From assembly GCA_009746045.1 (NCBI GenBank), contig RPFO01001748.1, positions 35,312 to 99,311 on the forward strand: a stretch of 64,000 nucleotides of DNA, read 5' to 3'. The notes below the pieces were generated by a model. It searched no databases and was not told the origin of the DNA. It saw only the letters and a list, made by a program, of their open reading frames with translations. Made by a program: the position numbers and the translations under genes. Source of the stretch: Mesostigma viride. Lineage: Eukaryota; Streptophyta; Mesostigmatophyceae; Mesostigmatales; Mesostigmataceae. Of this stretch, positions 15,177 through 64,000 are shown piece by piece; the stretch's first letter is position 1, and each line of letters starts with the position of its first letter.

Positions 15177-17340
15177 CTAATTATTATTAGCAGTCCAAAG
15201 AAGAGAGAGGGAGTAAATGCCGTGTTCAAGCTGAGCGGGGACCACTAGGTCGGCCAGCAACATCTGGATGTAGTTCATGGCAGGTTTACCCAGCTTTCTA
15301 GGAATGTCCTTGGGGCCAGGCCAGGTCAGGATGTGCCGCCCTGGTTGGCCAAGCCGCTGGGGGCCGGCCAGACCAAGGGCGGTATCTACCTGACTGGTGC
15401 GAGCAAGATGTCCTACAAATGTTATCCTACGCTGCCTAATCTCGCCCGAAATGCGAGGCATACCCTAATACAAAGACTCTAAAGACCTATGTGTGGAAAA
15501 CCCTTCATTCACCTGCATCCTGTAAACCGTGCCGTCTAGCTTGGCGACCAGTGTGTCCGTGAGTGTCCATGCCTTGGCGCCATACGTAAGCACCGTGAGG
15601 ACGAGGACCTTGAAGAGCATGCGCTAATTGCGGTGCTCGCCCAGGCCCTTCGAGCGTCAGTAGGTGTTGAGCGAACGAAGCCTAGCCGAGGCCAGGCCGA
15701 TGCCAATGTCCACATCGCCGGCGGTGTCGGGAAGCATGCTCCCCAGCAGTTTGAAGCGATCACGGAACGGGACCTCCGTCCCGTCTAGCAGCAGCGGCAG
15801 GCGGCGGGCGACTGGAAGCCCCAATCACCATCGCCTCAGTTTTGACACTCATCTCCAACCCCACCGCCCGCGCCTCCCGAAGCCCAGACAGTCCAGCCAG
15901 GTCTGAATGTGCTCGGGGCGCGCGATGTGGGTGGTATCATCCGCATAAATCAGGTCGGACAGGCGGTAGCCAGCCGGGCCACCGCTGCCGTGTTCGCGCT
16001 CGTTAAGGATGTCCAAGCCGGGCTCGCACCCCTTAAGAGCAGTAAAGCGCGCACGTGCCCGGCGCATGACGTGATCTACGACAATAATGAACAGATATGG
16101 GGACAGGACACAACCTTGCCACACCCCGTGGTGAAGGGTGAATGGTGGGGTGGTGCCTTCCGCAGTCCGCACTAGTCACTACTGCCTGTGAGCCCTCATA
16201 CAGTCGACGAATGGCAGCAACAAACGCTGGTGGTACCCGATCCAGAGCTAGGATGGCCCAAAGAGCCTCCCAGAGGACCGTGTCAAAGGCCTTGATATAG
16301 TCAACCAAAATGAAGACCAGCGGCAAACCGCCAGGGAAAAGGCGACGCACCTCCTCCATCAACCGGCGCGCCACAAATACAGCCATGACAGTGTCACGAC
16401 CACGACGGAAACCCATCTGAGACTCACCCAGGTGTGGGTCCAGCGCGGCGCGGAGCCTGTGCAGCATCATGCGCATGAAGACCTTCAGCGCGGCGCTCTG
16501 GAGGCAGATACACCCCGATAGTTACCGGGGTCAGCAGCAGAGCCCTTCTTGTACAGCATGACGCGGATGGCCGTCTGCCACTCAGCACTGAGGCGGAGGC
16601 TCCTCAGAGAGCAGGACACAGTTGCAGAACGCCAGCAGAAGCTCCCTCACCGCCGGGTCAGGGGTCTTCAGCAGCTCAGCAGAAAGGTGGTCGGCACCGA
16701 CTGCCGCGTCGAACCGCAGGCAAGCAAGGGCGCCGTCCAATTCCTCCAAAGTGAAGGGGACATCAGTGGACGACGTCGTTGGTGGCAAGGCAGCCCTCCT
16801 TCAAGGCGGGGACTTGGTAGTCCGCGGTCGAGGTCGAGGGGGGCGCTGCCAGGCGGCGGGGGGGTCCGGCAACACCAAGGCGGGCGGCCGTCTCCGGGTG
16901 AAGCGGCGGGGGGGGGGGGCGCGAGCCCCACCTGTCAAGGAAACATTGTGGTCCAACCAGCGGTCAAGGCTGACCGGCGCCGTGCCGTCCCCCGTGTGCT
17001 CCACCGGGGTGCGCTGCCGCCGGCCGCCGAGCCGGTACGCCGAGGTGGTACCACATGTCCTTGCCCTGGTTGCGAGCTTGGCAGGCCTTGGCATCCGTGT
17101 TGCACTGGGCCGCCTCTGCGCCCTGAGCGTGTGCGTAGGCCTCCACAACTTAGGGCAGCCTTGAGCACCGGAGTTCAGCAGCGGGAATATTCCCCTGCGC
17201 CCCCGCGCCGGCCCCTACACCAGGGGCCGGTCCCGCCGACAATCCCGCGATGGATGTTCCACTTGGTGGTCCATTAAGGGGATTCACTACGAGGCTATCA
17301 GGTGGTGCGCCGGCAGTCGCCGAGGAATTCCCTCCCAAAC
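15177..17340 (-). pseudogene. Decayed LINE ORF2 (reverse transcriptase)
   Basis: Reverse-transcriptase motifs are readable in broken frames. They include a segment with FRRGRDTVMAVFVARRL and then VDYIKAFDTVLW (motif A) at 16476-16200, GVWQGCVLSPYLFIIVVDH and YADDTTHI (motifs B and C) at about 16130-15920, and a basal-domain piece with FVGHLARTSQVDT at 15440-15390. A further upstream piece with LDGALACLRFDAAVGADHLS lies at 16760-16670. Frameshifts separate all of them. No endonuclease domain is visible, so the copy is 5'-truncated or eroded. It ends in a short TTATTATTA tail at 15180. It is closely related to the LINE at 31.4 kb. Confidence 0.88.
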
Positions 17341-18690
17341 GTGGGTGTCACGGACGCGAGCTATGTCATCCGGGCGCCCACTATGCACAAGACCGGTGAC
17401 GTGCGCAAGGAATTTGTTTTCTACGCATTTTCGACAAAGGCTAGTGACCGGGGGGGGACACTAGCACTTGCAGCATAAGAGCGGACGAAAGTGTACGTGC
17501 ACGCGCGCCGGGCCAGGCACAGCTGGGCGCGCAGCACTGACTTGAGCGGACGGCAGCACAAGTGTGCAGCGTCGAGAGGATCATACGCGTGTTAGTGGAC
17601 AGCTGGAGCTGAAGCTGGACTGCTGGACTTCAACAGCGCCGAGGCTATTGACAGGCCAGGTGTCTTTGTGGTGTAGAATAGCGGGTCAACGTTATGAGGA
17701 CTGGACAGAAAATGGAAAAGGACAATTTGCGGTGCGGAGCCAGATCGCTGGAATGAATGCGAAATCGCTGGCAGCCCTACAAAGGGATTTCTTCTAGAAA
17801 GGAACGATTAGACGCAATGTTTGCTGGGCCACTCACACGCAAGGTGTGAGCGTGCAGATTGTCTGAAGGATATTATGCTTCGACCTTGCTGGACGTGACT
17901 CAATGTCGGACATTCCCAGGGACAGAAATGCCGGAGCCTCTAGGAGATGAGATCGGCAACAGGGTAGCAATTTAGATTTGTCGGGATGCCTTCCTGCTTT
18001 TGTTGGCATGTGTGGTAGAAAGCCAGGACGGCAACTGGAATGCGGTTTCTATTCGCATGGTTCAGGCAGCAAGATAGTTTTGGCATTCCTGGCTGGACTG
18101 ACAAGTGTGGCGTGTGTCATGCGTGTGGCATGACGAATGGTTTGGTTCATAGTCGAAGAGGACTCTCACGCAGCGTGTAGTCTCTTCGAGTCTCTCGTTA
18201 GTGGCCTTCGTGTTTCTCCCTTTCCTTGGGAGCAAGGCCGGTAGCATGTCATGGAGCGCTGCCTAACTGCGGGCTCGTGAGCATGGAGTGCATCGATATT
18301 GAGACTATCAACGTGTTGTAATTGTATTAACTTTCTCAATAAATTCCGCATGTGCGGCTTCATCATCAGACTGTGCAAAGTGTGTGTTTTGAAAGCATTA
18401 TTCTATAGCAGGGGAGGCAATAAGGTGGTTATCAGGCACGAGGGACAGTTCCTTGTCCTCGGCTGAGAGCCCTCCTTTCGTTACTCGAAGAGACTACCCG
18501 GTAGTCTGCTTCCTTCTGTTCGAAGCCAAGACGTTGGCTTTAGTGTTTATCAACCATCAGCAGTACAGGGAACGGCCTGGCTGACAGTTTGTAAAGGAAG
18601 TGTCTTGAGACAGATTTTAAGAAAATAGAACTAGCCAGAATTTGCTGGCTCTTGTCTTTTTCTGGCAGGCTAACCTAGGCTTGTTGGTTC
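17341..18690. other. Leader / presumed left flank of the Ty3 element
   Basis: No gene is recognised. A long terminal repeat is expected near here, but I find no matching sequence downstream of the element. A perfect 15-bp inverted repeat, GTAGTCTCTTCGAGT at 18177-18191 and its complement at 18483-18497, could be leader RNA structure. Confidence 0.35.
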
Positions 18691-18747
18691 TTGTTTTGCC
18701 CATCGGTCAGCTGGTGCATGCCACTGACGCGAGCGCAGACTCGAGCC

Positions 18748-20526
18748 ATGGCGGATGCAAATAGAGCAGATGCCGACACGTCCGCTCCGGGGTCGAATGG
18801 CGGGATTCCTCCCGCCGTACCCGCAGTGGGTGAGAGTCGCGACCAAGAAGCGCCGCTGAGTATGGTGGCGCTGTTCGCGCAGATGCAAGCGCAGATGCAG
18901 CAACAGTCGCAACAGTTGCAGCAGCAATTGGCGCTGCAGATGCGGGAAGTGACCGACAGATTGGTGGCCGTAGAGGGTCGTCATCTGCAGTCCACACCAT
19001 GGGACGGGCAGGCATCGATGCCGGGCCCCAGTGGTGTTGCCGCGGAGCCGAGGGAGCGGGACCAGCCGCCAACCTCAGGTAATGCGGCGGGAAGGGCTTC
19101 GATGGAACCGGGGGTTTTGGCTGGGTCGCTAACCCAACACGACTTGCTTGGTGAGGCGGATGGTCAGCCACGGGGCGAGTATACGCTGGCGCCCAGGCGC
19201 CTGCCTTTCGATCAAGCGCGAGACGGATTGCACGAGGAGAACGGGGCAGGGCTGGCGCGCGCGATGGACCCACACAGGGGTGCACCAGGACGCATGCTGC
19301 CAGGCGGGGCCTCAATTCCGTTTGGGCGAGGCGGTGGGGCGCTGACCGGCGGGTCGACTGCACGGTGGTCAAGTGTGCCAATCGGGCGCATTCCGCCCAT
19401 GGAGGACATAACCACGCCGCTGGCTTTCCGAGTACGGGAGGCAGCACGACCAAGCACGCTGGCGCAGGGACGCGCAGCTCAGCGACCGCCGGAGGATGCC
19501 GATGGGGTGCAGTACCCGCAAAGGGTGCGCCTCATACCGGAAGGCGCGAAGATGCCCACCCTACCACGGGTGGACATGCGCGAGAAGTTCTCCACAACCG
19601 GCAATCTGGCCACGCTGGCGCAGGCCTACAACGCGTACAAGTCATGGATTGATCTGCAATACATGACTACGCAAGGCGCTGTAATGCATGAGTTTGTGAT
19701 GAACAACATGCATTTTTTCTTTCACGGCCTTACGCTGAGGCGAGTGGCTAGGCTGGTGGAGCAGTGGAGAGAGGTCTCGCTGTACACGCGTCACACGGAC
19801 GTGTGGTTCGGCTTCGACGGGCGTGGCCAGCCCGACTATGACAACATCATGTATGGTGTCGACCCTGCCGAGGAACTGTGGGGCCTCCTTCGCCAGGAAT
19901 ACCCGGTGGAGACCATCAAGGCAGAGCGTGAGTGGCGCAGTTTCAAGATAGCCGAGGGTGAAACCCCGGAGCAATCTTACGAGCGCCTCATGGAGTTCGC
20001 CGGCGAAGTGGAGGACTGGTCCGAAAAGCTGGCGTGTCAGAAATGGCTGCAAGCGCTAGGCTCCAAGGAGATGGAGCTGCCCACGCCGCCCAACGGCCAG
20101 CCGTGGCGATTGCGGTCACTGTGCATTGAGGTCAGGGCCATGATGCGACGACACGCGCAAGGCCGGATCTCGGTAAGCACGGTGGTGGCCGAGCTGCAGG
20201 CCAAGGTCGACGCGCTGACCAAGGCCAAGTCGGGTGAGTCGTCTGCCACAAGACAAGCGCGCCCGCAAGGCGGCCACGGTGCTAGCAGGAACCAAGGGGG
20301 GTCTCGCAACGCCTCATCGCATGATGCAACCCAGGGTAACGCCGCTGGCGGCAACAAAGACGCTGCCGCCCCGACGCGAGCTGGGGGGGCACGTCCTCAC
20401 AGACGGGTACTAGGACGGATGCGCGCAAATCGGGCTGCTTCCTTTGCGACAAGGATGGGCACCTTAGTCGCGAGTGTCCAAGCCGCTGCACGAAGCCGCA
20501 TGGGGCAGACACGAAGTGGCACCTGA
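18748..20526 (+). CDS. Ty3 gag (capsid) protein
   Basis: This is the structural protein of the Ty3 element. The start at 18748 is preferred because of its CCATGG context; an in-frame ATG at 18691 also exists. A glutamine-rich coiled-coil-like segment (QMQQQSQQLQQQLALQMR) lies near residues 45-65 from this start. A proline-rich linker follows, then a capsid-like helical domain with AEREWRSFKIAEGETPEQS. The last 40 or so residues in this frame look non-native. The zinc knuckle that should end the protein (CFLCDKDGHLSREC, C-x2-C-x4-H-x4-C) is read in the -1 frame at 20440-20485, continuous with pol. The switch point is a run of seven G at 20383-20389. Confidence 0.85.
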   Translation: MADANRADADTSAPGSNGGIPPAVPAVGESRDQEAPLSMVALFAQMQAQMQQQSQQLQQQLALQMREVTDRLVAVEGRHLQSTPWDGQASMPGPSGVAAEPRERDQPPTSGNAAGRASMEPGVLAGSLTQHDLLGEADGQPRGEYTLAPRRLPFDQARDGLHEENGAGLARAMDPHRGAPGRMLPGGASIPFGRGGGALTGGSTARWSSVPIGRIPPMEDITTPLAFRVREAARPSTLAQGRAAQRPPEDADGVQYPQRVRLIPEGAKMPTLPRVDMREKFSTTGNLATLAQAYNAYKSWIDLQYMTTQGAVMHEFVMNNMHFFFHGLTLRRVARLVEQWREVSLYTRHTDVWFGFDGRGQPDYDNIMYGVDPAEELWGLLRQEYPVETIKAEREWRSFKIAEGETPEQSYERLMEFAGEVEDWSEKLACQKWLQALGSKEMELPTPPNGQPWRLRSLCIEVRAMMRRHAQGRISVSTVVAELQAKVDALTKAKSGESSATRQARPQGGHGASRNQGGSRNASSHDATQGNAAGGNKDAAAPTRAGGARPHRRVLGRMRANRAASFATRMGTLVASVQAAARSRMGQTRSGT

Positions 20527-23500
20527 TGAACAAGTGTCCAGCCGCGGGCATCAAGACGGTCCACTTCGCCGAGATGGCGGGCAAGACCGACTCGATGGAA
20601 GCCCAGGTGGCTGCCATCAAGCATGGTGAGGAGGCGACGGCGCCCCCCAACCAATTCGAGACGGTGTACCGGGAGGACCCATTCTGGGCGCCCATGCCGG
20701 GTGACGTCGAGATCAACGCTGCGGAGGCTACCAAAGGCAAGCAGGCACGCAGCCCGCTTTCTTTTCAGCAGGCACCCATGTTGCCTGCCGGGCAGTTGCC
20801 CGCGTCCTTTTCCATGCCGCTGGCTGGGGTGCAATCTGCTTTTGAGCATGCGAACCCTGCTGGGCTGGAGCAGCGTAGGCGATTGGCGCCTGTGTACCCA
20901 ATGCCGTTCATTGTGGACGTACCCATGTTTTCAGCACGGCAGGTGGTCGACACCTTCGGGCAGAAGGGGGTTGAGTGGCTGGGGTCGGTTGTGTCCGAGA
21001 TCCAGTTGTTCGCAGATGGGCATGATGTGCGCACCTTGCGCAATTCTGAGTCCGTCACCTACGGGCGCCAGCCGGTAGAAGCCGCAGTGCCCGTGGTGCA
21101 AGCGGGAGTGGTCAGCACAAGTAGCCAGCAGCGCACTAGTGCAGTCCCCCAGGTTCCCACGGTGGTTCCATACCCCAATGGTGAGCCGTCCATGGCGTTC
21201 CAAGCAGTTGGAGCCTGTGGAGATGTATGGAGCGACATGGTGACATGTCCGTTGGTTGGCGCAGTCAAGCTTGATAGCGGTGCTCAGCCGCTAGTCATCA
21301 GCACGGACTTGGCCACCATGCTGAACCTGACCTACGAGAACGGTGGCTTAGTGGAAAGCCCCGTGTCTGTGTCAGGTTGGCAGGGTCCGGCTAGTAAGCC
21401 GTACGCTATGACGGCGGTTAAAGTCAACGTGATTTTCAATCCGTTGCGCGCCTCTAGCATGACCACCGTGTCCGCGTATGCGCTGGTGGTCAACAAGTGT
21501 GGATATTCCGCACTACTCGGGGTGGATGTCCTTGCTCGCGCCATGGTTCAGGTGGACTATAGGGCGGAGGAGGCATCTTACATCCCTGATTGGGATGGGG
21601 CTGGCCTGAAGCGGGCCAGTGTGCCGGTCTCATGCTTCAGTTCTTCAGCCGGGGCTGCACGCCTCAACCCTTCCGCGGCTGCGGGCGTGGTGGAGGTCAG
21701 CATGGTGGAGGTACGGGCGGCGGGCTCATCGGCGTGGGACAAGCATCGGACGGTGCTGCCCCAGCCAACGGCGAGCATTGCCAAGATGCGCACGCAGTGG
21801 TCGCTGGATGCTGTGACGTCCACGCGGCAGCTGGCTATGCGCAAGCGGGTGACTGAAGCCGTCATCACCATTCCTCAGATGGCCAGCCATGGCCTCACTT
21901 TGCTGCAACCGGGTGTCTCGGAGGCCCAAGGTAATTTTTCTGCTGCAATCTTACCGCAGGCCCCTGATTTTGCCAAGGGTGCGGTAGTGTTGGAACTGTT
22001 TGCGGGGATCGGAGGGGGCATTGCAGGCTTTTTGGCCGCAGGCGGCGTGTGCCGTAAACTCATCGCGGTAGAGCCATCGCACAAGGCGCGTCAGGTGTAC
22101 TTCAGTCACTGTGGCGTGTTGTCGCGAGAGTATCCCGCGCAGTTTCCGCCATCAGCATGGCGTGACCCGTTTGGGGAATGTCCTCAAGATATCCGAGCCA
22201 TCGGTGAGGTGCAGGTGCAGCAGTTGTTGCGCAGGCATCATGCCATCGACTTGGTAATTGCGGGTTGGGAGTGCCAGGGCCTGAGCCAGGCAGGGCAAGG
22301 GCGGGGGCTAGCCGATCCGCGTAGCGCGCTGTTCTGGGAACTGTTGCGTGTGGTGGGACTGTTGCAGTCGCGTCAGCCCCATCCGCCTGCGTATCTGTTT
22401 GAGAACGTTGTGGCGGGTGACAGCCCACATCAGGCGGTGCGGGAGGACTGGGCTACAATCGTGGCACTCCTGGGGGAGCCCATCGTGTGTGACAACGCAG
22501 GGCTGGGTGGGCTCACGCATCGTTTGCGTGCCTATTGGACCAACGTGGCGTGTGCGACCGATGTGCAGGCGGTCTTGGGGGCCGTAGCAAGGCAGCATCC
22601 GAGTGTGTCTGCGGAGGTAGCATTGCCTTCCCACCTAGTCACGCAGAAGGTGGATAGCGAGGATCGCCCACCGTATGCACGCGTCAACCGGGTCGGGAGC
22701 CCCATGTGTGCACTGCCGACCCTGGTCAGTTACCAAGGGTCGACAGCATACCGTGATCGGGGTAAGGGTCTCGTTTGGGACACTACCACCGGTCTGTTGG
22801 TGCAGCCACCCGCAGAATTTCGTGAGGCCAGCATGGGTTTTCATGTCGGGGCCTCGGCGCTGCCGGGCGTGCTCGAGAGTGAGCGCTGGTCTTTGATAGG
22901 CCAGGCTATGTCGGTGTTGCAGGTCGGGTATGTGCTGCTTGCATCGGTTGCCGTGCGCCAGTCTGGGGGGGCGTCCCCAGCCAATCCGCCTCAGCAGGTT
23001 GAGGCGCGCGCAGCCAAACTGAAGCGCCCTGCAGCGACGGGGACTTCATCAGCATGGGGGTGGCGTCTGCGACAGGTGTGGACTATCATTCTCATGACCG
23101 CCCTGCTGACCAGCACCGTGCTGGCCGGCGAGCCCACGCTGCATCGGGTAATACACCGTGCGGCACGCGAGGCTCCGGCGGTGGGTGTCACACCAGGCGT
23201 GGCAGCCTTTTCCTTGTTCCACGACGATGCGGCTAGGGCGCCGCATCTTGAGGCACATGCGGTAGCTGTGGGTGATCCCGCGGATACGCACCCCTGGGCT
23301 ATTGGCGAACACCTTTCTGATGCGCAGCGCTCAGCCATGCTAAAGTGGCTAGGCACTGCAAGGGGGGCCTTCGCTTTCACAAGTGATGAACTGGGGTGTT
23401 TCAATGGTGGGACCATGCGTGTTCCATTGGACACTGACACTCCTTTGTTCCGACGCCAGCATCGCCTGAGTCAGGCCGAGTTGGATTTTGTAGCCGAGCA

Positions 23501-23927
23501 ATGCAAGGAGTTAGAGGATGCCGGTATCATCAGGCAATCTTCCTCCAGCTATGCCGCTGCCGTTGTCGTTGCGCCCAAGAAGGACGCTATCACCGGGGCA
23601 TGGACGGGTATGCGCATGGCCACCGATCTGCGGTTGCTGAATGCACACACACCCGTGGACCGTTACCCCATGCCACGTGTGGATGATGTCCTGGATAAGA
23701 TATCTCCTCATGTGAAGTTTGTGTCCTCGCTGGACCTGCGTAGCGGCTTTCATCAGATCGCAGTTGCGCCGGAGGATCAGCGGAAGCTTGCATTCTGGGG
23801 GGCGGCAATTTGTATGAGTGGGTGCGCATGCCCTTTGGGCACCGCAACGCTAGTGCTGTTTTCCAACGAGCTATGGACAAAGTGCTTGCAGGTCTTCCTT
23901 TCGCCGCTTGTTACATTGATGATGTAA
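20526..23927 (+). CDS. Ty3 pol part 1: protease, C5-DNA methyltransferase, start of reverse transcriptase
   Basis: The open frame actually extends upstream to about 20382 and includes the gag zinc knuckle. The aspartic protease shows KLDSGAQPLV with the catalytic Asp at residue 250, then LLGVDVLARAMVQVDY. The methyltransferase spans residues 480-810. It has motif I LELFAGIGGG, motif IV GWECQGLSQAG with the presumed catalytic Cys at residue 583, motif VI LFENVV, a motif VIII-like HRLRAYW and a motif X-like IGQAM. Residues 850-870 form a hydrophobic stretch (VWTIILMTALLTSTVLAG). Reverse transcriptase begins near residue 960 and reaches SLDLRSGFHQIAVAPEDQ. After KLAFWG the frame is lost at a G run, and the remaining tail to the stop is spurious. 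Confidence 0.9.
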   Translation: MNKCPAAGIKTVHFAEMAGKTDSMEAQVAAIKHGEEATAPPNQFETVYREDPFWAPMPGDVEINAAEATKGKQARSPLSFQQAPMLPAGQLPASFSMPLAGVQSAFEHANPAGLEQRRRLAPVYPMPFIVDVPMFSARQVVDTFGQKGVEWLGSVVSEIQLFADGHDVRTLRNSESVTYGRQPVEAAVPVVQAGVVSTSSQQRTSAVPQVPTVVPYPNGEPSMAFQAVGACGDVWSDMVTCPLVGAVKLDSGAQPLVISTDLATMLNLTYENGGLVESPVSVSGWQGPASKPYAMTAVKVNVIFNPLRASSMTTVSAYALVVNKCGYSALLGVDVLARAMVQVDYRAEEASYIPDWDGAGLKRASVPVSCFSSSAGAARLNPSAAAGVVEVSMVEVRAAGSSAWDKHRTVLPQPTASIAKMRTQWSLDAVTSTRQLAMRKRVTEAVITIPQMASHGLTLLQPGVSEAQGNFSAAILPQAPDFAKGAVVLELFAGIGGGIAGFLAAGGVCRKLIAVEPSHKARQVYFSHCGVLSREYPAQFPPSAWRDPFGECPQDIRAIGEVQVQQLLRRHHAIDLVIAGWECQGLSQAGQGRGLADPRSALFWELLRVVGLLQSRQPHPPAYLFENVVAGDSPHQAVREDWATIVALLGEPIVCDNAGLGGLTHRLRAYWTNVACATDVQAVLGAVARQHPSVSAEVALPSHLVTQKVDSEDRPPYARVNRVGSPMCALPTLVSYQGSTAYRDRGKGLVWDTTTGLLVQPPAEFREASMGFHVGASALPGVLESERWSLIGQAMSVLQVGYVLLASVAVRQSGGASPANPPQQVEARAAKLKRPAATGTSSAWGWRLRQVWTIILMTALLTSTVLAGEPTLHRVIHRAAREAPAVGVTPGVAAFSLFHDDAARAPHLEAHAVAVGDPADTHPWAIGEHLSDAQRSAMLKWLGTARGAFAFTSDELGCFNGGTMRVPLDTDTPLFRRQHRLSQAELDFVAEQCKELEDAGIIRQSSSSYAAAVVVAPKKDAITGAWTGMRMATDLRLLNAHTPVDRYPMPRVDDVLDKISPHVKFVSSLDLRSGFHQIAVAPEDQRKLAFWGAAICMSGCACPLGTATLVLFSNELWTKCLQVFLSPLVTLMM

Positions 23928-26599
23928 TCGTCTTTAGCGCGACATTTGAGGAGCACCTGGCGCACTTGGAGCAGGTTCGCTTGGCTCTCGAGGAGCATAA
24001 TATGCGGCTGCACCCTGAGAAGTGCAAGTTCGCCCAGCGGACCCTCTCATTCCTTGGTCATCAGATTGTGCCGGGTGGCCGGACGCCTGATGCCGCCAAG
24101 GTCGAATCCATTGTGCAGGCCGCCGTACCCACGGATGTCTCAGGGGTGCGGGCGTATTTGGGTTTGGCTGGCTATTACCGAGGTTACATTGAGAACTTCA
24201 GCAGCAAGGTGAAGCCCTTGACCGAGTTACTCAAGAAGGGGTGCGTGTGGGCGTGGGGTCCCGCACAGCAACGCGCCATCGAGACAATCAAGCAGGAGCT
24301 CACGTCGGCCCCGATTCTGCGCGCCCCTGACTATGCTTTGCCATTTGTGTTATATACCGACTGGTCCAAGGTAGGACTGGGTGCGGTCTTGGCGCAAAAG
24401 GATGGTGATGGGCGCGAGCACGTTATTGCTTATGCTAGTCGCAGCAACAACCCAGCGGAGAGCCGGTATTCTTCCTATGAGGGGGAGGCACTGGCTGTGG
24501 TGTGGGCCATCAAGCACTTTCGCCCGTATTTAGTTGGGCGCGTGTTTACTCTGGTGACAGACCACCAGCCGCTTCAGTGGCTAATGACCAACACCAACCT
24601 GACGGGTAAGCTCGCCCGATGGGCCATGATTATCCAGGAGTACCACATGACCATTGTGCATCGGGCCGGCAAGGACCATGTCAACGCCGATGTGCTATCC
24701 CGATACGCCATGCCTACCACTGTTGACCACACTGGAGCCCGGGCCATGGGTGCCGAGGGCTCGTCGGGTTCTGTGGTCTTTGTGAACGCTGCTGGGTATG
24801 CGGCCGACGATGAGGAGGAGGCGTGGTGGCGCAGTGTCGAGTACTCTGTGGCGGACTTCGGCATCAGCGACGACCCGGTGCGGCCGTCGCCATTCACGCC
24901 ATCCAAAGCTGTGTGCGCTATGGAAGAGGGTAGGTCTCTGTCCTTTGACATTGATCCTTCTCTGCAGCAGCTGATCGCTGTGCAGGCTCTCTTAGCGCGT
25001 AGCTCTCTTGCTGATTGCTACACCGCTGATATCTGGCTAGATGGTCGAGTTTTGGAGCAAGTGCAGGGTGCTGTCTTGACTCCTACTCCAGTCGATTGGA
25101 CTCCTGCTCAGAAGGCGACGGAGTTGAACAGGGTGCAGCACAGGGCTGCAACCTATGGTTGGGAAGATGGGGTTTTGTACAAGCTGTTGGGCAAGCGTAG
25201 GGTGGTCGTCCCACCGCCTGACAAGCGCGTTGCTATAGTGCAGGCGTACCACGAGCGGTATGGTCACTTGGGTGGCAATCGCACGCTCAGCCTCGTACGG
25301 ACCAGCTATTGGTGGAATAACATGCGACACACAGTGGCCCAGGTAGTGGCCAGCTGTGTCCCGTGTGCTCGAACCAAGGCTAACTTTAGCGCAGATCATG
25401 GTGCCAAGGAGCTGATGTCGCTTCCCATCAAGGGCTTGTTTTATCGCTGGCACGTCGATCTGTGCGGGCCGTTTCAGGAGAGCCCTGACGGCAACCTCTA
25501 TGTCATGGTATGCGTGGAGAGCTTTAGCAAATGGGTTGAGTTGATCCCCATTGCTGACAAGCATGCCGCTACCACAGCGAAGCATTTTGCAGACATCATC
25601 ACCAGGTTTGGGGCTCCCGCGGAGGTAGTCACGGACCAGGGTGGTGAGTTCAGGGGTGAGTTCCAGGAGTTGCTGGATGGATGTCTTATTGATCACCGTC
25701 GCACTTCTCGGGAGCATCCTCAGGCCAATGGTTTGGCTGAGAGATTGGTGCAGACCGTCAAGCAGGCGCTGCGCAAGTGGAGCCTGCAGGTGCCGGAGTC
25801 GGCCAGGTGGGATCGCGAGTTGGCATGGATTGCCATGGGTTATCGCATGTCTCCCCAGGAGTCTCTCGCTACCTTCTCCCCGTATTTCCTTCTGTTCGGG
25901 CGTAATCCTCTTTTGCCTACGGAGGCACAGGTTGCGCACCCCGAACCCATGGCCTTCGACAACGCTCAGCAATTTTTGGTTGAGGTGCTGGCCAGGGCAG
26001 AGACTTTTAAGAAGGTCATGCCCATCGCGATGAACAACTTGTTCATTGCTCAGCACAGGGACTCCCTGCGTTACGCTCAGCGCCGGGGGGGCGCATACAT
26101 GGCTCGCCAGCTGCGGTTTAGGCCAGGGCAGTATGTTTTCCTGCGCACTCAGCTGAAGCACACTTTGGATGTGGAGGCGGGGCCCACCATTTTGCGCATT
26201 GTGGCTATCAAACCATCGGGAGTGGCAATTTTGGAGGGCGCCGACGGGAGCCGTACGACAGACAACCTCAGCAATCTCAGTCCCTGCTCACTGCCCAATT
26301 TGGTCCACGACCTCCAACCGCACACATCTCGCCGAGTCAAGGACGCCCAGTGTCAGGTTTGTCACCGGGTCGATCAGGCGGAGTCCATGTTATTGTGTGA
26401 TCAGTGTAACTGTGGTTGGCACATGCAGTGCTTGCAGCCCGTGGTCACCAGCATTCCGGAGGGGGATTGGTTTTGTCCAGTGTGCACCGCTGCGCAGTTT
26501 ACCTCCCGCATCATCATGGGACAGGTCCTCGCCCACCCCACAGGGCATGCAGTTAAGGCAGGCACATCAGCTCAGCTCATTTGGGTTTTACCAAATTAA
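23810..26599 (+). CDS. Ty3 pol part 2: reverse transcriptase, RNase H, integrase, PHD finger
   Basis: This continues pol in the -1 frame from EWVRMPFGHRNASAVFQRAM. The polymerase box YIDD is at residues 35-38. RNase H shows LYTDWSKVGLGAVL and, later, TDHQPLQW. Integrase has the zinc-binding HERYGHLGGNRT with CVPCARTK, and a core with Asp in WHVDLCGPF, Asp in VVTDQGGEF and Glu in QANGLAERLVQ (the D,D-35-E set). After the integrase C-terminal region, residues 842-897 form a PHD finger: CQVC, LLCDQCNCGWHMQCL, then WFCPVC (C4HC3). Such a finger could tether integration to a histone tail; chromodomains play this role in other Ty3 elements. All catalytic residues expected in these domains are visible. 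Confidence 0.93.
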   Translation: MYEWVRMPFGHRNASAVFQRAMDKVLAGLPFAACYIDDVIVFSATFEEHLAHLEQVRLALEEHNMRLHPEKCKFAQRTLSFLGHQIVPGGRTPDAAKVESIVQAAVPTDVSGVRAYLGLAGYYRGYIENFSSKVKPLTELLKKGCVWAWGPAQQRAIETIKQELTSAPILRAPDYALPFVLYTDWSKVGLGAVLAQKDGDGREHVIAYASRSNNPAESRYSSYEGEALAVVWAIKHFRPYLVGRVFTLVTDHQPLQWLMTNTNLTGKLARWAMIIQEYHMTIVHRAGKDHVNADVLSRYAMPTTVDHTGARAMGAEGSSGSVVFVNAAGYAADDEEEAWWRSVEYSVADFGISDDPVRPSPFTPSKAVCAMEEGRSLSFDIDPSLQQLIAVQALLARSSLADCYTADIWLDGRVLEQVQGAVLTPTPVDWTPAQKATELNRVQHRAATYGWEDGVLYKLLGKRRVVVPPPDKRVAIVQAYHERYGHLGGNRTLSLVRTSYWWNNMRHTVAQVVASCVPCARTKANFSADHGAKELMSLPIKGLFYRWHVDLCGPFQESPDGNLYVMVCVESFSKWVELIPIADKHAATTAKHFADIITRFGAPAEVVTDQGGEFRGEFQELLDGCLIDHRRTSREHPQANGLAERLVQTVKQALRKWSLQVPESARWDRELAWIAMGYRMSPQESLATFSPYFLLFGRNPLLPTEAQVAHPEPMAFDNAQQFLVEVLARAETFKKVMPIAMNNLFIAQHRDSLRYAQRRGGAYMARQLRFRPGQYVFLRTQLKHTLDVEAGPTILRIVAIKPSGVAILEGADGSRTTDNLSNLSPCSLPNLVHDLQPHTSRRVKDAQCQVCHRVDQAESMLLCDQCNCGWHMQCLQPVVTSIPEGDWFCPVCTAAQFTSRIIMGQVLAHPTGHAVKAGTSAQLIWVLPN

Positions 26600-26885
26600 G
26601 CTGAGTGGCCAGCCGCCATGGTGGCGCCGGAGATTGTGGCACGCAGACGCGACATGGGGTTTGTGCCGGGGATGACCCCCTAGAGCCACGCTCACTACTC
26701 GGGCGTGAGTGATTTTGGGTAGCTCTGTCTTCCGCCTCTAGTGCTGCCACAAGGGAAGGGGCCGAGGCTCGAGAAGCGATGGGCCTCTTGTCGCCCTCGC
26801 TCAATACCATCAGCCATCGCGTGGTGGCTGGTCCGAAGTGTTACACAATGTGCCTCTAGTCTTGGCGGGATGATAAATTAATAAT

Positions 26886-31395: not shown

Positions 31396-34300
31396 CACCA
31401 CCCTGCTCCATCTCCGCCCCCACCCCCGCCTGCACCCCCCTTTTCGGTCAACGCGCGCCCTTGGTCATCGCCACCTTCAACGCCCGCACGCTCCAGCCCG
31501 ACGCTGACCGCTGTCACTGCCTGCGCAGTGACGACTGTCAGACTGTGCCATCGAGTCTCCAATCTTATTGGTTTCTGCATCGACAATAATATCGCCATCC
31601 TGGGAATCCAAGAACACAGGCGCACTGCATCGGCCATGCAGCGGATCAACTGCCCTTGCTGCTGACGACATCGACGGCTGGCGGTTCTACTACGGAGGCG
31701 GCGACGGCACCGGGAACGGGGGCGTCGGTCTCCTCTGCTCCCCGCTCGCCGTACGCCACATGGGCGAACCCCAGCTGGTCAACGCTCGGCTCCTTGTGGC
31801 CACTTTTCATTCGATGGAGGGCCACTCGACCTACGCCCTGACGGTGGGCGTCGGTTACGCACCCCACTCCGGCCACCCAGAACAAGATAGCAAGGACTTC
31901 TTTGCTTCGCTGGAGAACCTGGCGAACGGCATCCCTGGTCGCAACTACCTCGCTCTGCTGCTGGACGCCAACGCCATGCTACCACCGGGTACTGGAGGAT
32001 GTCAGCACGGCCCCAACGGTACGGTCTCTAATGCCAACACTGAACTTTTTGCTGATTTGCTTACGACATGCGATTTGGTCACTGCCAACACCCGCTTTCC
32101 ACATAGTCCAGATGCTTTGGTCACACACACCTCGCCAACTGGCACTGAACGCTGCATCGACTATGTTGTAATGCGCAAGCGTCATCAAGGATCTGTACTA
32201 GCTGCTCGCTCGCATGTGATCCCCCTGGTGCGCTCCGATCATCGCATCGTCACCACCCGCATCCGCCTGCGATTCCCCCCGCCCTTAATTCGTAAGCACG
32301 TGGCACCACCTGATTTGCGCACACTTCAGTTGCTTGAGAAATCTGACGACGCTCTCGCCTGGAGGACTTCCCTGAAAAACAAGCCCACAAGCGCGCGGCA
32401 GAGGCGTTCGTCGACGCGCTGGACATCCCGGCCAGCCACTGACCCCCAGCTGTTCGCTGCCGGCCCGGCATCGGCCCTTCGGCACCTCGCTGACAAGCTG
32501 CCCGCGGCCGGGGCCCTGCTGCCCCCCCGCCGCCCGCCCCGCTTCACCACTGAGCCTGCACCGGCTCCCCGCCGTCATCCAGGCCTGGCAAGCCCTGCGC
32601 GACAACAGCGAACCCGCCCGCTACGCCCGCCTCAAAGCCGATTACCACTCGGCCATCCGGCAGGTGACCAAGGAGCAGGAGGACCTTCATGTCCGCGAGT
32701 ACTTCGCCCACCTCAAGGACCAGCACGGCAAGTACGCCTGGACCCGCCTGCGTCACGCCCAACGGCCCGCCGGCGCCGGGCGCGCAGCCCGGGCGCCGCG
32801 GACGCTCTCTGGCTCACCGCAGCAGCAGCTCGACCAGTGGTATTCCTCCCAGTCCCGGCTGCTCGGCGCCCCCCCGCCGCCTCCGCCGCTTGGCCCTCTG
32901 CATGGCGGCCGCACGCCTCAGTGGCAGTAGCGCCTGCGGACGTCCCTGCGCCGCCCACGCCGCCCGCCGCTGAGCAGGACTACACGTACCCAGCCCTGAC
33001 GGAACCCCTGGCCGACCCCAACGAGCTACCGCCGTTCACCGGCGAGCTCGAGCTGAGCACCGCCGCCAAGCAACTCCGCTTCTACGCCGCCGTTGGACCT
33101 GACCAGCTCCCAGCCCCGGTGATTAAGCTGGCGGCGCTCACGGGGTTCCTGCTTGATGTCTGCAACCGGATCCTGCTTGCCGACGCGCCGCCGATTCCTG
33201 AGTGGCAGCACAGCTACCGTAAAGGTTCCCCTGACGACCCCACCAACTACAGAGGAGTCTGCATCCAGAGCGCCGCACTCAAGTTGTTCATGCGCATGAT
33301 CCTCAACCGCCTTCGTTCTGCTCTCGACTGTCACCTTGGGGAAAGTCAAATGGGCTTCCGTCCTGGGCGCAACACCGTCATGGCCATCTTCATCGCGCGT
33401 CGCCTCTTCGAGGAAATCGCTCTCCTGCAACCTGGTGAGTTTCCCGCCATCCTGATCTTCGTCGACTTCATCAAGGCTTTTGATTCTGTCCTCTGGGACG
33501 CTTTATGGGCTGTACTTGCTCGCGCTCGCGTCCCCACTCCCCTGATTACCGTCATCCGCACGCTGTATGAGGGGTCGACCACTTCGGTGCGCACTCAACA
33601 CGGCATTACCCCGCCATGCCCACTGCAGACCGGCGTCTGGCAGGGTTGCGTCCTGTCGCCGTACCTGTTTATTATTGTAGTGGATTATGTTATGCGCCAG
33701 GCACGTGCTCGCTTTGCTAGCATTGCAGGCCGTGCCCCTGGCCTAGCGATCACGAACGAGCTTGGAGAAGGGGGGCCGACTAACAAGCAGAATTTACTAG
33801 CTGACCTCATTTATGCCGACGACATCACGCTCATCGAGAAGCCGGAGTCTGCCCAACTTTGGCTGGACCGCCTGGCGCTCGAGGCTCGGGCGGTTGGTCT
33901 ACTAGAAATCGGCCTCAAAACGGAGGCCCTGGCCCTCGGCATGGCAGGGCCCCCACCCACACTCCGCCTCTTAGACGACACCGAGGTCCCCTACCCTCCT
34001 TCAGGCCGCTTCAAGCTGCTCGGCAGTTGGCTTCCCGACTGCGAGGACAACATGACGACACGGATCGGCATGGCGTGGGCGCACCTCCATGACCACCGCC
34101 GCTGGTGGAGCAACCCCGCCCTACCCCGGATCGTCAAGCGTGACCTCTTCAAGGTCGTCATTCTGACGATCCTGACCTACGGCGCCGAGACGTGGACACT
34201 GACGCAGGAGCTGGAGCAACGACTCGACGGCGCCGTCACCAAGATGCTGCGCAAGGCCCTTAACATCCCCTTTGGTTTGCACATTAGTAATGAGGATTTG

Positions 34301-51610: not shown

Positions 51611-54600
51611 AACCAGTACACCAGTACACCAGTACACCAATACACCAATACACCAGCACACAAGCACACCAGCACACCAGCACACCAGCACACCAGTACA
51701 CCAGCACACCAGCACACCAGCACACCAGCACACCAGCACACCAGCACACCAGCACACCAGCACACCAGCACACCAGTACACCAGCACACCAGTACACCAG
51801 TACACCAGTACACCAGTACACCAGTACACCAGTACACCAGTACACCAGTACACCAGTACACCAGTACACCAGTACACCAGTACACCAGTACACCAGTACA
51901 CCAGTACACCAGTACACCAGTACACCAGTACACCCACAAGTACACCAGCACACCAGCACACCAGCACACCAGCACACCAGTACACCAGCACACCAGCACA
52001 CCAGTACACCAGTACACCACTACACCAGTACACCAGTACACGGACACCAGCATACCAGTACACCAGTACACCAGTACACCAGTACACCCACCAGTACACC
52101 AGCACACCAGTACACCAGTACACCAGTACACCAGTACACCAGTACACCCACCAGTACACCAGCACACCAGGACACCAGTACACCAGTCCACCAGTACACC
52201 AGTACACCAGCACACCAACACACCAGTACACCAGTACACCAGTACACCAGTACACCAGTACACCAGTACACCAGTACACCAGCACACCAGTACACCAGTA
52301 CACCAGTACACCAGTACACCAGTACACCAGCACACCAGTACACCAGTCCACCAGCACACCAACACACCAGTACACCAGCACACCAGTACACCAGTACACC
52401 AGTCCACCAGTACACCAGTCCACCAGTACACCAGTCCACCAGTCCACCAGTCCACCAGTACACCAGTCCACCAGTCCACCAGTACACCAGTACACCCACC
52501 AGTACACCAGCACACCAGTACACCAGTACACCAGTACACCAGTACACCCACCAGTACACCAGTACACCAGTACACCAGTACACCCACCAGTACACCCACC
52601 AGCACACCAGTACACCAGTACACCAGCACACCAGTACACCAGCACACCAGTACACCAGTACACCAGTGCACCAGTACACCAGTACACCAGTACACCAGCA
52701 CACCAGTACACCAGCACACCAGTACACCAGCACACCAGTACACCAGTACACCAGTACACCAGCACACCAGTACACCAGTACACCAGTACACCAGTACACC
52801 AGCACACCAGCACACCAGTACACCAGTACACCAGTACACCAGTACACCAGTACACCAGTACACCAGTACACCAGTACACCAGTACACCAGTACACCAGTA
52901 CACCAGTACACCAGCACACAAGTACACCAGTACACCAGTACACCAGCACACCAGTACACCAGTACACCAGTACACCAGTACACCAGTCCACCAGTCCACC
53001 AGTCCACCAGTCCACCAGTACACCAGTACACCAGTACACCAGCACACCTGTACACCAGTACACCAGTACACCAGCACACCAGCACACCAGTACACCAGTA
53101 CACCAGTACACCAGCACACCAGTACACCACTACACCAGTACACCCACCAGTACACCAGCACACCTGTACACCAGTACACCAGTACACCAGCACACCAGTA
53201 CACCAGCACACCAGTACACCAGGACACCAACACACCAGCACACCAGTACACCAGTACACCCACCAGTACACCAGCACACCAGCACACCAACACACCAGTA
53301 CACCAGCACACCAGTACACCAGTACACAAGTACACCAGTACACCAGTACACCAGTACACCAGTACACCAGCACACCAGTACACCAGCACACCAGTACACC
53401 AGCACACCAGTACACCAGTACACCAGTACACCAGCACACCAGTACACCAGTACACCAGTACACCAGTACACCAGTACACCAGTACACCAGCACACCAGTA
53501 CACCAGTACACCAGTACACCAGTACACCAGTACACCAGTACACCAGTACACCAGTACACCAGCACACCAGTACACCAGTACACCAGTCCACCAGTCCACC
53601 AGTCCACCAGTCCACCAGTCCACCAGTCCACCAGTACACCAGTACACCAGCACACCAGCACACCAGCACACCAGTACACCAGTACACCAGTACACCAGTA
53701 CACCAGTACACCAGTACACCAGTACACCAGCACACCAGTACACCAGTACACCAGTACACCAGTACACCAGCACACCAGTACACCAGTACACCAGCACACC
53801 AGTACACCAGTACACCAGCACACCAGTACACCAGCACACCAGTACACCAGTACACCAGCACACAAGTACACCAGTACACCAGTACACCAGCACACCAGTA
53901 CACCAGTACACCAGTACACCAGTACACCAGTACACCAGTCCACCAGTCCACCAGTCCACCAGTCCACCAGTCCACCATTACACCAGTACACCAGTACACC
54001 AGTACACCAGTACACCAGTACACCAGTACACCAGTACACCAGTACACCAGCACACCAGTACACCAGTACACCAGTACACCAGTACACCAGTACACCAGTA
54101 CAGCAGTACACCAGCACACCAGTACACCAGTACACCAGTACACCAGTACACCAGTACACCAGTACACCAGTACACCAGTACACCAGTACACCAGTACACC
54201 AGTACACCAGTACACCAGTACACCAGTACACCAGTACACCAGTACACCAGCACACCAGTACACCAGTACACCAGTCCACCAGTCCACCAGTCCACCAGTC
54301 CACCAGTCCACCAGTCCACCAGTACACCAGTACACCAGCACACCAGCACACCAGCACACCAGTACACCAGTACACCAGTACACCAGTACACCAGCACACC
54401 AGCACACCAGTACACCAGTACACCAGTACACCAGCACACCAGTACACCAGTACACCAGTACACCAGCACACCAGTACACCAGTACACCAGTACACCAGTA
54501 CACCAGTACACCAGCACACCAGTACACCAGTACACCAGTACACCAGTACACCAGTACACCAGTACACCAGTACACCAGTACACCAGTACACCAGTACACC

Positions 54601-57600
54601 AGTACACCAGCACACCAGTACACCAGTACACCAGTCCACCAGTCCACCAGTCCACCAGTCCACCAGTCCACCAGTCCACCAGTCCACCAGTCCACCAGCA
54701 CACCAGTACACCAGCACACCAGCACACCAGCACACCAGTACACCAGTACACCAGTACACCAGTACACCAGTACACCAGTACACCAGTACACCAGTACACC
54801 AGTACACCAGTACACCAGTACACCAGTACACCAGCACACCAGTACACCAGTACACCAGTACACCAGTCCACCAGTCCACCAGTCCACCAGTCCACCAGTC
54901 CACCAGTCCACCAGTACACCAGCACACTAGCACACCAGTACACCAGCACACCAGTACACCAGTACACCAGTACACCAGTACACCAGCACACCAGTACACC
55001 AGTACACCAGTACACCAGTACACCAGTACACCAGTACACCAGTACACCAGTACACCAGCACACCAGTACACCAGTACACCAGTACACCAGTACACCAGTA
55101 CACCAGTACACCAGTACACCAGTACACCAGTACACCAGCACACCAGCACACCAGTACACCAGTACACCAGTACACCAGTACACCAGTACACCAGTACACC
55201 AGTACACCAGCACACCAGCACACCAGTACACCAGTACACCAGTACACCAGCACACTAGCACACAGACACCAGTACACCAGTACACCAGTACACCAGCACA
55301 CCAGCACACCAGCACACCAGTACACCAGTACACCAGTACACCAGTACACCAGTACACCAGTACACCAGTACACCAGTACACCAGTACACCAGTACACCAG
55401 TACACCAGTACACCAGTACACCAGTACACCAGTACACCCACCAGTACACCAGGACACCAGCACACCAGTACACCAGTACACCAGCACACCAGTACACCAG
55501 CACACCAGTACACCAGTACACCAGCACACCAGCACACCAGTACACCAGTACACCAGTACACCAGCACACCAGTACACCAGCACACCAGTACACCAGTACA
55601 CCAGCACACCAGTACACCAGCACACCAGTACACCAGTACACCAGTACACCAGTACACCAGTACACCAGTACACCAGTACACCAGTACACCAGTACACCAG
55701 TACACCAGCACACCAGTACACCAGTACACCAGTACACCAGTACACCAGTACACCCAGCAGTACACCAGTACACCAGTACACCAGTACACCAGTACACCAG
55801 TACACCAGCACACCAGCACACCATTACACCAGCACACCAGTACACCAGTACACCAGCACACCAGCACACCATTACACCAGTACACCAGTACACCAGCACA
55901 CCAGCACACCAGTACACCAGCACACCAGTACACCAGTACACCAGCACACCAGCACACCATTACACCAGTACACCAGTACACCAGCACACCAGCACACCAG
56001 CACACCAGTCCACCAGTACACCAGTACACCAGTACACCAGTACACCAGCACACCAGCACACCAGTACACGAGTACACCAGTACACCCAGCAGTACACCAG
56101 TACACCAGTACACCAGTACACCAGCACACCAGCACACCAGTACACGAGTACACCGGTACACCAGTACACCAGTACACCAGCACACCAGTACACCAGTACA
56201 CCAGTACACCAGTACACCAGTACACCAGTACACCAGTACACCAGTACACCAGTACACCAGTACACCAGTACACCAGTACACCAGTACACCAGTACACCAG
56301 TACACCAGCACACCAGTACACCAGTACACCAGTACACCAGTACACCAGCACACCAGTACACCAGTACACCAGTACACCAGTACACCAGTACACCCAGCAG
56401 TACACCAGTACACCAGTACACCAGTACACCAGTACACCAGTACACCAGCACACCAGCACACCACCACACCAGTACACCAGTACACCAGTACACCAGTACA
56501 CCAGCACACCAGTACACCAGTACACCAGTACACCAGTACACCAGTACACCCAGCAGTACACCAGTACACCAGTACACCAGTACACCAGTACACCAGTACA
56601 CCAGCACACCAGCACACCAGCACACCAGTACACCAGTACACCAGTACACCAGTACACCAGTCCACCAGTACACCAGTACACCCAGCAGTACACCAGTACA
56701 CCAGTACACCAGTACACCAGTACACCAGTACACCAGTACACCAGTACACCAGTACACCAGTACACCAGCACACCAGTACACCAGTACACCAGTACACCAG
56801 TACACCCAGCAGTACACCAGTACACCAGTACACCAGCACACCAGTACACCAGTACACCAGTACACCAGTACACCAGTACACCAGTACACCAGTACACCAG
56901 CACACCAGCACACCAGTACACCAGTACACCCAGCAGTACACCAGTACACCAGTACACCAGTACACCAGTACACCAGTACACCAGCACACCAGCACACCAC
57001 CACACCAGTACACCAGTACACCAGTACACCAGTACACCAGCACACCAGTACACCAGTACACCAGTACACCAGTACACCAGTACACCCAGCAGTACACCAG
57101 TACACCAGTACACCAGTACACCAGTACACCAGTACACCAGCACACCAGCACACCAGCACACCAGTACACCAGCACACCAGTACACCAGTACACCAGTACA
57201 CCAGTACACCAGTACACCCAGCAGTACACCAGTACACCAGTACACCAGTACACCAGTACACCAGCACACCAGTACACCAGCACACCAGTACACCAGTACA
57301 CCAGCACACCATTACACCAGTACACCAGTACACCAGTACACCAGTACACCAGTACACCAGTACACCCACCAGTACACCAGCACACCAGTACACCAGTACA
57401 CCAGTACACCAGTACACGAGTACACCAGCACACCAGTACACCAGTACACCAGCACACCATTACACCAGTACACCAGTACACCAGTACACCAGTACACCAG
57501 TACACCAGTACACCAGCACACCAGTACACCAGTACACCAGTACACCAGTACACCAGCACACCAGTACACCAGCACACCAGTACACCAGTACACCAGTACA

Positions 57601-63600: not shown

Positions 63601-64000
63601 ACACCAGTCCACCAGCACACCAGTACACCAGTACACCAGCACACCTAGCAGTACACCAGTACACCAGTACACCAGTACACCAGTACACCAGTACACCAGT
63701 ACACCAGTACACCAGCACACCAGCACACCAGTACACCAGTACACCAGTACACCAGTACACCAGCCAACACACCAGTACACCAGTACACCAGTACACCAGT
63801 ACACCAGTACACCAGTACACCAGTACACCAGCACACCATTACACCAGTACACCAGTACACCAGTACACCAGCACACAGTACACCAGTACACCAGTACACC
63901 AGTACACCCCAGCACACCACCAGTACACCAGTACACCAGTTACCCCACCCAAGTTACACCAGTACACCAACACCACTAGTACAAACCCACCAGTACACCA
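51611..64000. repeat. 10-bp satellite (CACCAGTACA family), at least 12.4 kb
   Basis: This is a near-continuous array of CACCAGTACA, with CACCAGCACA and CACCAGTCCA as the main variants and rare interruptions such as CACCCAGCAG, CACCCACCAG and CACGAG. It runs off the window. Because the unit has no stop in any frame on either strand, very long ORFs arise on both strands and are not genes. The region holds nested order: clusters of 4-8 GTCCACCA units recur about every 230-360 bp near 53-55 kb, and a block of about 3.7 kb is repeated once about 4.44 kb away. It separates the DUS exons in this window from their missing 5' exons. Confidence 0.97.

Follow-up and report, generated by a model that had tools for sequence, protein, structure and literature searches.

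Elements of the DIRS/PAT type carry their repeats in the order A1-ORF-B1-A2-B2, have a circular intermediate and a tyrosine recombinase, and are not known to produce a target duplication. Tf1-type elements and chromoviruses integrate at the ends of their long terminal repeats (LTRs), carry chromodomains and are not known to carry a methyltransferase; in Tf1-type self-priming the primer site is complementary to the element's own RNA. REM1 of Chlamydomonas reinhardtii, said to have been described by Perez-Alegre et al. in 2005, is a Ty3/Gypsy element that reportedly contains a PHD finger, and we know of no methyltransferase in it. KnitGypsy-Dnmt3 of the streptophyte Klebsormidium nitens (de Mendoza et al. 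2018) has, according to the section of PMC5890265 devoted to it, a Gypsy Pol with an embedded C5-methyltransferase under purifying selection, and its repeats are called 'the same as that of a DIRS retrotransposon'. Here we describe a Ty3-type retrotransposon in a stretch of 64,000 nucleotides of Mesostigma viride DNA (GenBank assembly GCA_009746045.1, contig RPFO01001748.1, positions 35,312 to 99,311 of the forward strand; the whole stretch is referred to below as the window), which shares features with each of these systems.

With DIRS/PAT elements it shares the repeat order and a proposed circular intermediate, but it differs in its DDE integrase and 4-bp duplications. A primer site complementary to its own RNA and a reader domain at the integrase C-terminus recall Tf1-type elements and chromoviruses, from which it differs by having a PHD finger and a methyltransferase and by its split-repeat ends. 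It is, like REM1, a green-algal Ty3/Gypsy element with chromatin-reader modules, but the REM1 chromodomain lies in a reversed frame in the passages of PMC2774666 that mention it, whereas the PHD finger reported here is in frame after the integrase. The likeness to KnitGypsy-Dnmt3 extends to a C5-methyltransferase inside pol, DIRS-like repeats and constraint on the methyltransferase; on the side of differences, the term PHD is absent from the main text of PMC5890265, and its section on the element does not discuss target duplications, self-priming, joined complementary DNA (cDNA) ends or an inner palindrome. Each half of the combination thus has a precedent, a Gypsy element with Dnmt3 (PMC5890265) and REM1, with its chromodomain and reported PHD finger; a DNMT-bearing Gypsy element with DIRS-like repeats is already known. 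The passages of PMC12344493 on the subject place DNMT3 in streptophyte and dinoflagellate retrotransposons and report a chlorophyte DNMT clade, with no mention of a chlorophyte retrotransposon. Where PMC6338049 lists in general terms the retrotransposons that carry methylases, green algae are included. Chromodomains in green-algal elements are treated in PMC3350952, in the text of which PHD does not occur. In the open-access literature we found no description of a Ty3 element pairing a methyltransferase with a PHD finger, or of a Ty3-type integrase inserting joined cDNA.

Window positions 17342–26658, both target duplications included, are confirmed as a Ty3-type retrotransposon with a methyltransferase and a PHD finger in pol. 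Pfam matches and motif reading give the order protease, C5-methyltransferase, reverse transcriptase, RNase H, integrase zinc domain and core, and PHD finger, with gag upstream. The initial annotation had proposed just this placement of the methyltransferase, between retropepsin and reverse transcriptase, and of a C4HC3 PHD finger after the integrase. Its range of 18691–26599, which is covered by three long open reading frames, does contain the domains, but the true ends of the element are 17346 and 26654, with TGGG on either side, 26599 is not the natural stop of pol, and pol is broken in this copy. The features are as follows.

17342–17345, no strand: left 4-bp target-site duplication TGGG, identical to the four bases after the right end
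17346–18483, + strand: repeat A (A1), starting TGTCACGG; defined by blastn against 10 further copies; elsewhere a second A follows B1
18177–18191, + strand: 15-nt stretch that pairs perfectly with the primer site; predicted RNA 5' end and self-primer
18483–18497, + strand: putative primer-binding site for self-priming, where A1 ends; different sequences have the same role in the partner and second families
18718–20526, + strand: gag, open frame with ATG at 18718
20383–20389, + strand: G7 run within the gag/pol overlap, candidate recoding site, present in 11/11 copies
20436–20477, + strand: zinc knuckle (CCHC), read in the pol frame and lying ahead of the first pol ATG
20526–23927, + strand: first part of the pol frame in the window copy (protease, methyltransferase, reverse transcriptase N-terminus)
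21273–21533, + strand: retropepsin-like protease, DSGA ... LLGVD, motifs read directly
21984–22916, + strand: C5-cytosine methyltransferase domain, motifs I–X (PF00145, E = 2.8e-11; nearest PDB entry 4onj, E = 4.3e-5)
23304–24300 (end approximate), + strand: reverse transcriptase, frame-shifted in the window copy, the frames overlapping at 23810–23927
24329–24709 (ends approximate), + strand: RNase H (PF17917, E = 8e-39)
25211–26290 (C-terminal end approximate), + strand: integrase, H2C2 zinc domain and rve core (PF17921, E = 9.6e-17; PF00665, E = 3.3e-11)
26351–26485, + strand: PHD finger, C4HC3 (PF00628, E = 4.3e-9; PDB BAZ2B, E = 3.9e-16)
26513–26654, + strand: repeat B, ending GCGACA; directly after a polypurine tract in other copies, the tract being missing in the window
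26655–26658, no strand: right 4-bp target-site duplication TGGG, matching the left side

The part from reverse transcriptase to integrase matches Ty3 Gag-Pol in the PDB (E = 1.3e-63), and the succession of protease, reverse transcriptase, RNase H and integrase with Ty3-type sequences is that of the Ty3/Gypsy elements (Metaviridae). The protease is assigned by motif alone (DSGA at 21273 and LLGVD at 21513, both ahead of the methyltransferase), the Pfam scan of the window frames having given no match to a retropepsin-like protease. The two identical bounding LTRs of Ty3/Gypsy elements are not present: integrated copies are of the form A1-U-B1.A2-B2 or A1-U-B.

The host is a green alga, and the rbcL of its assembly (440 Mb, 2243 contigs) has its best PDB score against 1gk8 (1053 bits), an entry from Chlamydomonas reinhardtii. 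This assembly was searched for further copies. With window 19000–26000 as the DNA query, 22/22 scored matches (of 579 candidates) span the methyltransferase at 99–100% identity, and 106/106 scored matches to the methyltransferase protein (555 candidates) are ~100% identical over 390 residues, although a query based on this domain would miss deletion derivatives that lack it. Intact copies exist, since 39 of the 106 matches sit in an unbroken 2074-residue frame. Among 11 fetched copies, the window's included, there are no changes in the 1170 nt of the methyltransferase, and the PHD finger is unchanged in ten, the remaining copy having a 1-base gap. Retention of both domains in other copies, on which the initial annotation depended, is therefore borne out, and the family is very young. 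Because of the complete absence of changes, dN/dS could not be computed among copies and a second family was used instead.

This second family emerged from a PF00145 search of the host genome (127 matches; 123 of 415 candidates scored) as a set of equal-scoring matches (44.1 bits), six of them in 1642-residue frames, and one copy (C777) was read. It has the same order as the window element, namely gag, methyltransferase, reverse transcriptase, RNase H, integrase and PHD finger, with 67% identity over 310 codons of the methyltransferase and 88% in RNase H, and by reading all eight PHD ligands are present. The ratio of nonsynonymous to synonymous differences (pN/pS) between the two families is 0.315 (0.263–0.367) for the methyltransferase, 0.254 (0.206–0.314) for the integrase, 0.17–0.18 for reverse transcriptase and 0.107 for RNase H, against 0.51 in two linkers, values of which only the ratios between domains are meaningful, as pS is near saturation. 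The same saturation indicates that the split between the families is old. The methyltransferase is clearly constrained: it is kept nearly as strictly as the integrase, less strictly than reverse transcriptase and far more strictly than filler. Neutral evolution relative to reverse transcriptase, which would have told against the initial annotation, is thus not what we find, although the methyltransferase does evolve less strictly than its neighbour. The best explanation is that the methyltransferase and PHD finger are standing parts of pol in a Ty3-type lineage.

Motifs I, IV, VI, VIII and X of the methyltransferase follow one another in canonical order between 21984 and 22916. Motif IV of C5-methyltransferases is usually PCQ; here and in the second family it reads ECQ, the catalytic cysteine being kept and the preceding proline replaced by glutamate, alongside motifs VI and VIII. 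Sequence comparison ranks PDB entry 4onj (E = 4.3e-5), which we take to be a plant DRM, ahead of HaeIII/HhaI, DRM2 (0.0013) and DNMT3B (0.012), and a DNMT3/DRM-like enzyme is the best explanation, the motif order differing from the rearranged order of DRM. We judge the enzyme likely to be active. Searches of NCBIfam and PHROGs gave generic C5-methyltransferase matches inside the first ~160 residues of the domain, and no relatives of the methyltransferase or of the reverse transcriptase–integrase part were confirmed in IMG/VR and GTDB genomes. A single-sequence structure prediction of the methyltransferase had a mean pLDDT of 35 and was discarded.

The PHD finger is closest in the PDB to those of BAZ2B (E = 3.9e-16), KDM5/Lid, BAZ2A, CHD4 and ATXR5, which we take to be mostly readers of unmethylated H3K4, and is likely to be of the type that binds this mark (H3K4me0). 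PHD-type matches are the only ones at the integrase C-terminus at E ≤ 0.01 in Pfam, and the chromodomain of chromoviruses was not found there. This position suggests that the finger tethers the integration complex to chromatin. DNMT3 couples an H3K4me0 reader to methylation; the element likewise pairs a candidate H3K4me0 reader with a methyltransferase, but here the two flank reverse transcriptase, and they probably end up on separate processed proteins.

It may be asked whether the two domains act on the host or on competitors, in an antiviral or rival-blocking role, and not on the DNA and integration of the element itself. Many other C5-methyltransferase frames occur in the host genome, and PMC6338049, in the passage concerned, proposes an antiviral use of retrotransposon methylases. 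A PHD finger placed at the C-terminal end of the integrase, and the conservation of both domains beside reverse transcriptase, fit roles in the cycle of the element, and we regard a role directed at the host or competitors as distinctly unlikely. Apart from this question, the matches listed in the PF00145 search include equal-scoring sets of other C5-methyltransferase frames of about 256–390 residues (364, 325, 313 and 309 residues). These score far above the retrotransposon enzyme and are possibly viral or bacterial-type.

The split-repeat structure is the most unusual feature of the element. Comparison of copies shows that long ones have the form A1-U-X-B1-GC-A2-B2 and short ones the form A1-U-(X)-B, the latter being represented by C2133, C224 at 5.36 Mb and the window copy. 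X is a segment of ~80 bp which is missing from the window copy and present in 10/10 other copies fetched end to end; it carries the polypurine tract and, in copies with an unbroken frame, the stop codon of pol. The LTR search of the window returned no LTR pair because the repeats are split and the window copy is of the short form. The ends were examined in 24 copies. Six of these (C1469, C887, C1413b, C113, C1468a and C1413 at 2.5 Mb) were set aside, one end consisting of N or being absent from the piece fetched. The remaining 18 represent 17 distinct sites, C629 and C2145 sharing one, and at 17/17 of these a perfect 4-bp duplication lies outside A1 and the last B, the element ends being TGTC...GACA. 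The duplications are CCCC, GCCA, TGGG, CGGG, GAGC, GGCT, TGGG (window), CAAG, AACC, GGGG (the mixed dimer described below), CATG, CCCA, CCCT, TAGT, TTCT, TGGG and TCTG. The motif GCGACA-NN-TGTCACG, at which B meets A, occurs 469 times genome-wide compared with 32 for the reversed control, with a GC spacer in 95 of the 100 occurrences listed.

These observations bear on the simplest alternative, that of an ordinary LTR element which inserts by its LTR ends and whose split repeats arose afterwards, through recombination or tandem insertion, or are errors of assembly. The Ty3-like protein order and the presence of tandem loci or N runs at some sites would suit it. However, LTR ends bound none of the 18 copies in which both ends could be read; the duplications flank the A and B ends at 27/27 testable distinct sites in two families, counting the partner family described below; and the same arrangement recurs in the second family, where synonymous sites are saturated (downstream of pol, C777 has a G8 tract, B1, GCGACA-GC-TGTCGCG, an A2 of 1131 bp, and B2). 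We consider this alternative highly improbable.

The signals for replication lie at the inner boundaries of the repeats. The 15 nt at the end of A1 are perfectly complementary to 18177–18191 inside A, a length reached in 0/1000 shuffles. Tf1-like self-complementary primer sites of unrelated sequence occur in all three families, with lengths of 15 nt here, 15 nt in the partner and 17 nt in C777, the last without a shuffle control. B starts directly after the polypurine tract (GAGGGGGGG, followed by AAT). With a polypurine tract before B and a primer site at the end of A, the LTR in cDNA terms is B.GC.A, and the A2–B2 joint is accordingly an LTR end set against an LTR start. This joint has the modal form CTTTCTTT followed by AATC in 11 of 16 printed joints (C2145 and C629 counted once). 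The other five deviate each in its own way: one base is added in C1413a and one lost in C2111, A2 of C1804 stops at 18177 and that of C1469b at 18258, while C1468b has an insert of ~90 bp terminating in the reverse complement of the start of B' of the partner family. As 18177 is the first base of the self-complementary stretch, A2 of C1804 ends as if at the 5' end of an RNA.

The repeat order raises the further possibility of a DIRS/PAT-type cycle in Ty3 dress, in which the whole of A1-U-B1-A2-B2 would be made from one RNA, A2-B2 would be inherited, the missing ends would be templated by the inner B1–A2 joint, and a DDE integrase would have replaced the tyrosine recombinase. The order is indeed that of DIRS/PAT, as the section of PMC5890265 on KnitGypsy-Dnmt3 says of that element, and A1 and A2 carry separately inherited variants. 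On the other hand, the A–B joint varies by insertion (5/16 non-modal joints in the main family and 8/31 differing A ends in the partner), and its two sides fall at a polypurine tract and at a self-priming site, neither of which is needed in the DIRS model. The mixed dimer, moreover, is joined exactly at LTR-type ends. Pfam gave no tyrosine recombinase match in the three frames, an rve integrase being found, and 4-bp duplications, which DIRS/PAT elements are not known to make, are present at every testable site. A DIRS/PAT-type cycle is in our view unlikely.

The partner is a 1.4-kb unit, too short for pol, which is fused to the main element at C133 and gives no blastn match to A and U of the main element. 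It nevertheless follows the same rules, with TGTCACG...GCGACA ends, a GC spacer, a G7 tract and a self-complementary primer site of its own, 15 nt in length (0/1000 shuffles as long). Of 976 candidates for it in the genome, 40 were scored and yielded 116 matches, and a 4-bp duplication was present in 10/10 copies chosen for end checks, that of C535 being ambiguous because of a TCCA repeat. Joints were tallied in the 31 copies with both an A'2 and a B'2 row, copies with one piece being omitted. In 30 of these, B'2 starts with the first or second base past the G7 tract; in 23, the primer-site boundary marks the end of A'2, which lies elsewhere in the other 8; filler of 13, 28 and 582 bp, by coordinates, separates the two in three copies. 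The order at C133 is A'-int'-B'.GC.A'-B.GC.A-U-X-B.GC.A-B', with GGGG on either side, which is exactly the product to be expected of two linear cDNAs joined to a circle and opened at one B'.GC.A' site. C133 is a mixed-dimer insertion of the main and partner elements.

For LTR elements and retroviruses, joined cDNA is usually considered to lead nowhere. The split repeats, exact duplications, insertion-specific joints and mixed dimer point instead to integration from joined cDNA, and the following explanation, taken as a whole, seems to us quite probable. The element RNA would prime itself in a Tf1-like manner, giving a linear cDNA with the LTR B.GC.A, bounded by the polypurine tract and primer site. 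Joining the ends of this cDNA would give two-LTR circles; one-LTR circles would come from recombination, and mixed dimers would also arise. The DDE integrase would cut the palindrome GACA-GC-TGTC inside the LTR, two staggered cuts leaving TG...CA ends from one site, and would insert the opened circle with a 4-bp duplication, so that a two-LTR circle would yield the long form, a one-LTR circle the short form and a mixed dimer C133. The PHD finger at the integrase C-terminus would hold the complex on chromatin, in the manner of the chromodomains of chromoviruses, and the methyltransferase would methylate the new element DNA. The initial annotation had suggested similar roles for the two domains, and its interpretation is partly supported. 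The stronger proposal, that end-joined cDNA circles are the normal integration substrate, cut at a palindromic att-like site, and that the circle is linked to silent chromatin by the in-frame methyltransferase and a PHD finger of the H3K4me0 type, we hold to be evenly balanced between true and false. If true, nature would here provide an instance of the circle-junction integration that was once proposed, then dropped, for retroviruses, and the proposal would also explain the 'DIRS-like' repeats of the Klebsormidium element.

Several observations weigh against integration from joined cDNA and self-methylation as set out above. Linear concatemers fit nearly as well as circles, the evidence consisting of insertions alone. 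The left end of C777 was not found in the fetched piece, and this copy adds no target-duplication site. The activity of the methyltransferase is uncertain because of ECQ in motif IV, its pN/pS exceeds that of reverse transcriptase, and saturation limits what the comparison conveys. Finally, the G run at 17450 is G8 in 19/19 A1 and G7 in 19/19 A2 repeats, and A1 and A2 also differ at 17359/17418 (C1513 and C1978) and at 17618 (C1413a, C1468b and C1469). We considered assembly noise as the source of the G7/G8 difference and rejected it in view of the clean 19/19 split by position. A normal LTR cycle should equalize A1 and A2, yet the differences are kept: either the RNA includes all of A1 and there is a further template switch to B, or one copy is altered in each cycle.

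Retrotransposon-borne DNA methyltransferases do not appear to be a one-off, since in two families that separated long ago the enzyme has been retained under constraint next to a histone reader. This makes self-directed epigenetic marking directly testable. Software that relies on paired LTRs would miss or mislabel elements with split repeats.

Tandem head-to-tail copies sharing a B.GC.A joint were seen at C1546, C1524, C1602 and C1629, and at C2145 by spacing alone; such copies are as expected from dimer circles.

Gag and pol lie in different frames. With a G7 run in their overlap in all 11 copies and the CCHC knuckle already in the pol frame, recoding is likelier than re-initiation, and the G7 run is its candidate site. 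At C58:51138 and C623:143732 the methyltransferase lies in an open frame of 3371 or 2671 residues, which exceeds pol alone and is perhaps gag and pol in one frame. The pol of the window copy is disrupted inside reverse transcriptase. Several frame lengths recur among copies, and we considered whether broken frames mark trans-mobilized lineages, but the shift in the window sits in a mononucleotide run, which makes recurrent slippage or assembly error equally likely, and the idea was set aside.

An Rfam scan of the whole window gave no matches. Non-LTR reverse transcriptase-like pieces lie at 15849–16476 (− strand) and 33258–33718, with a 69% identical relative on the other strand. From 51612 to 63940, to near the contig end, the window consists of 12 kb of an 8-bp satellite (ACCAGTAC, ~1565 units) that is almost free of CpG.

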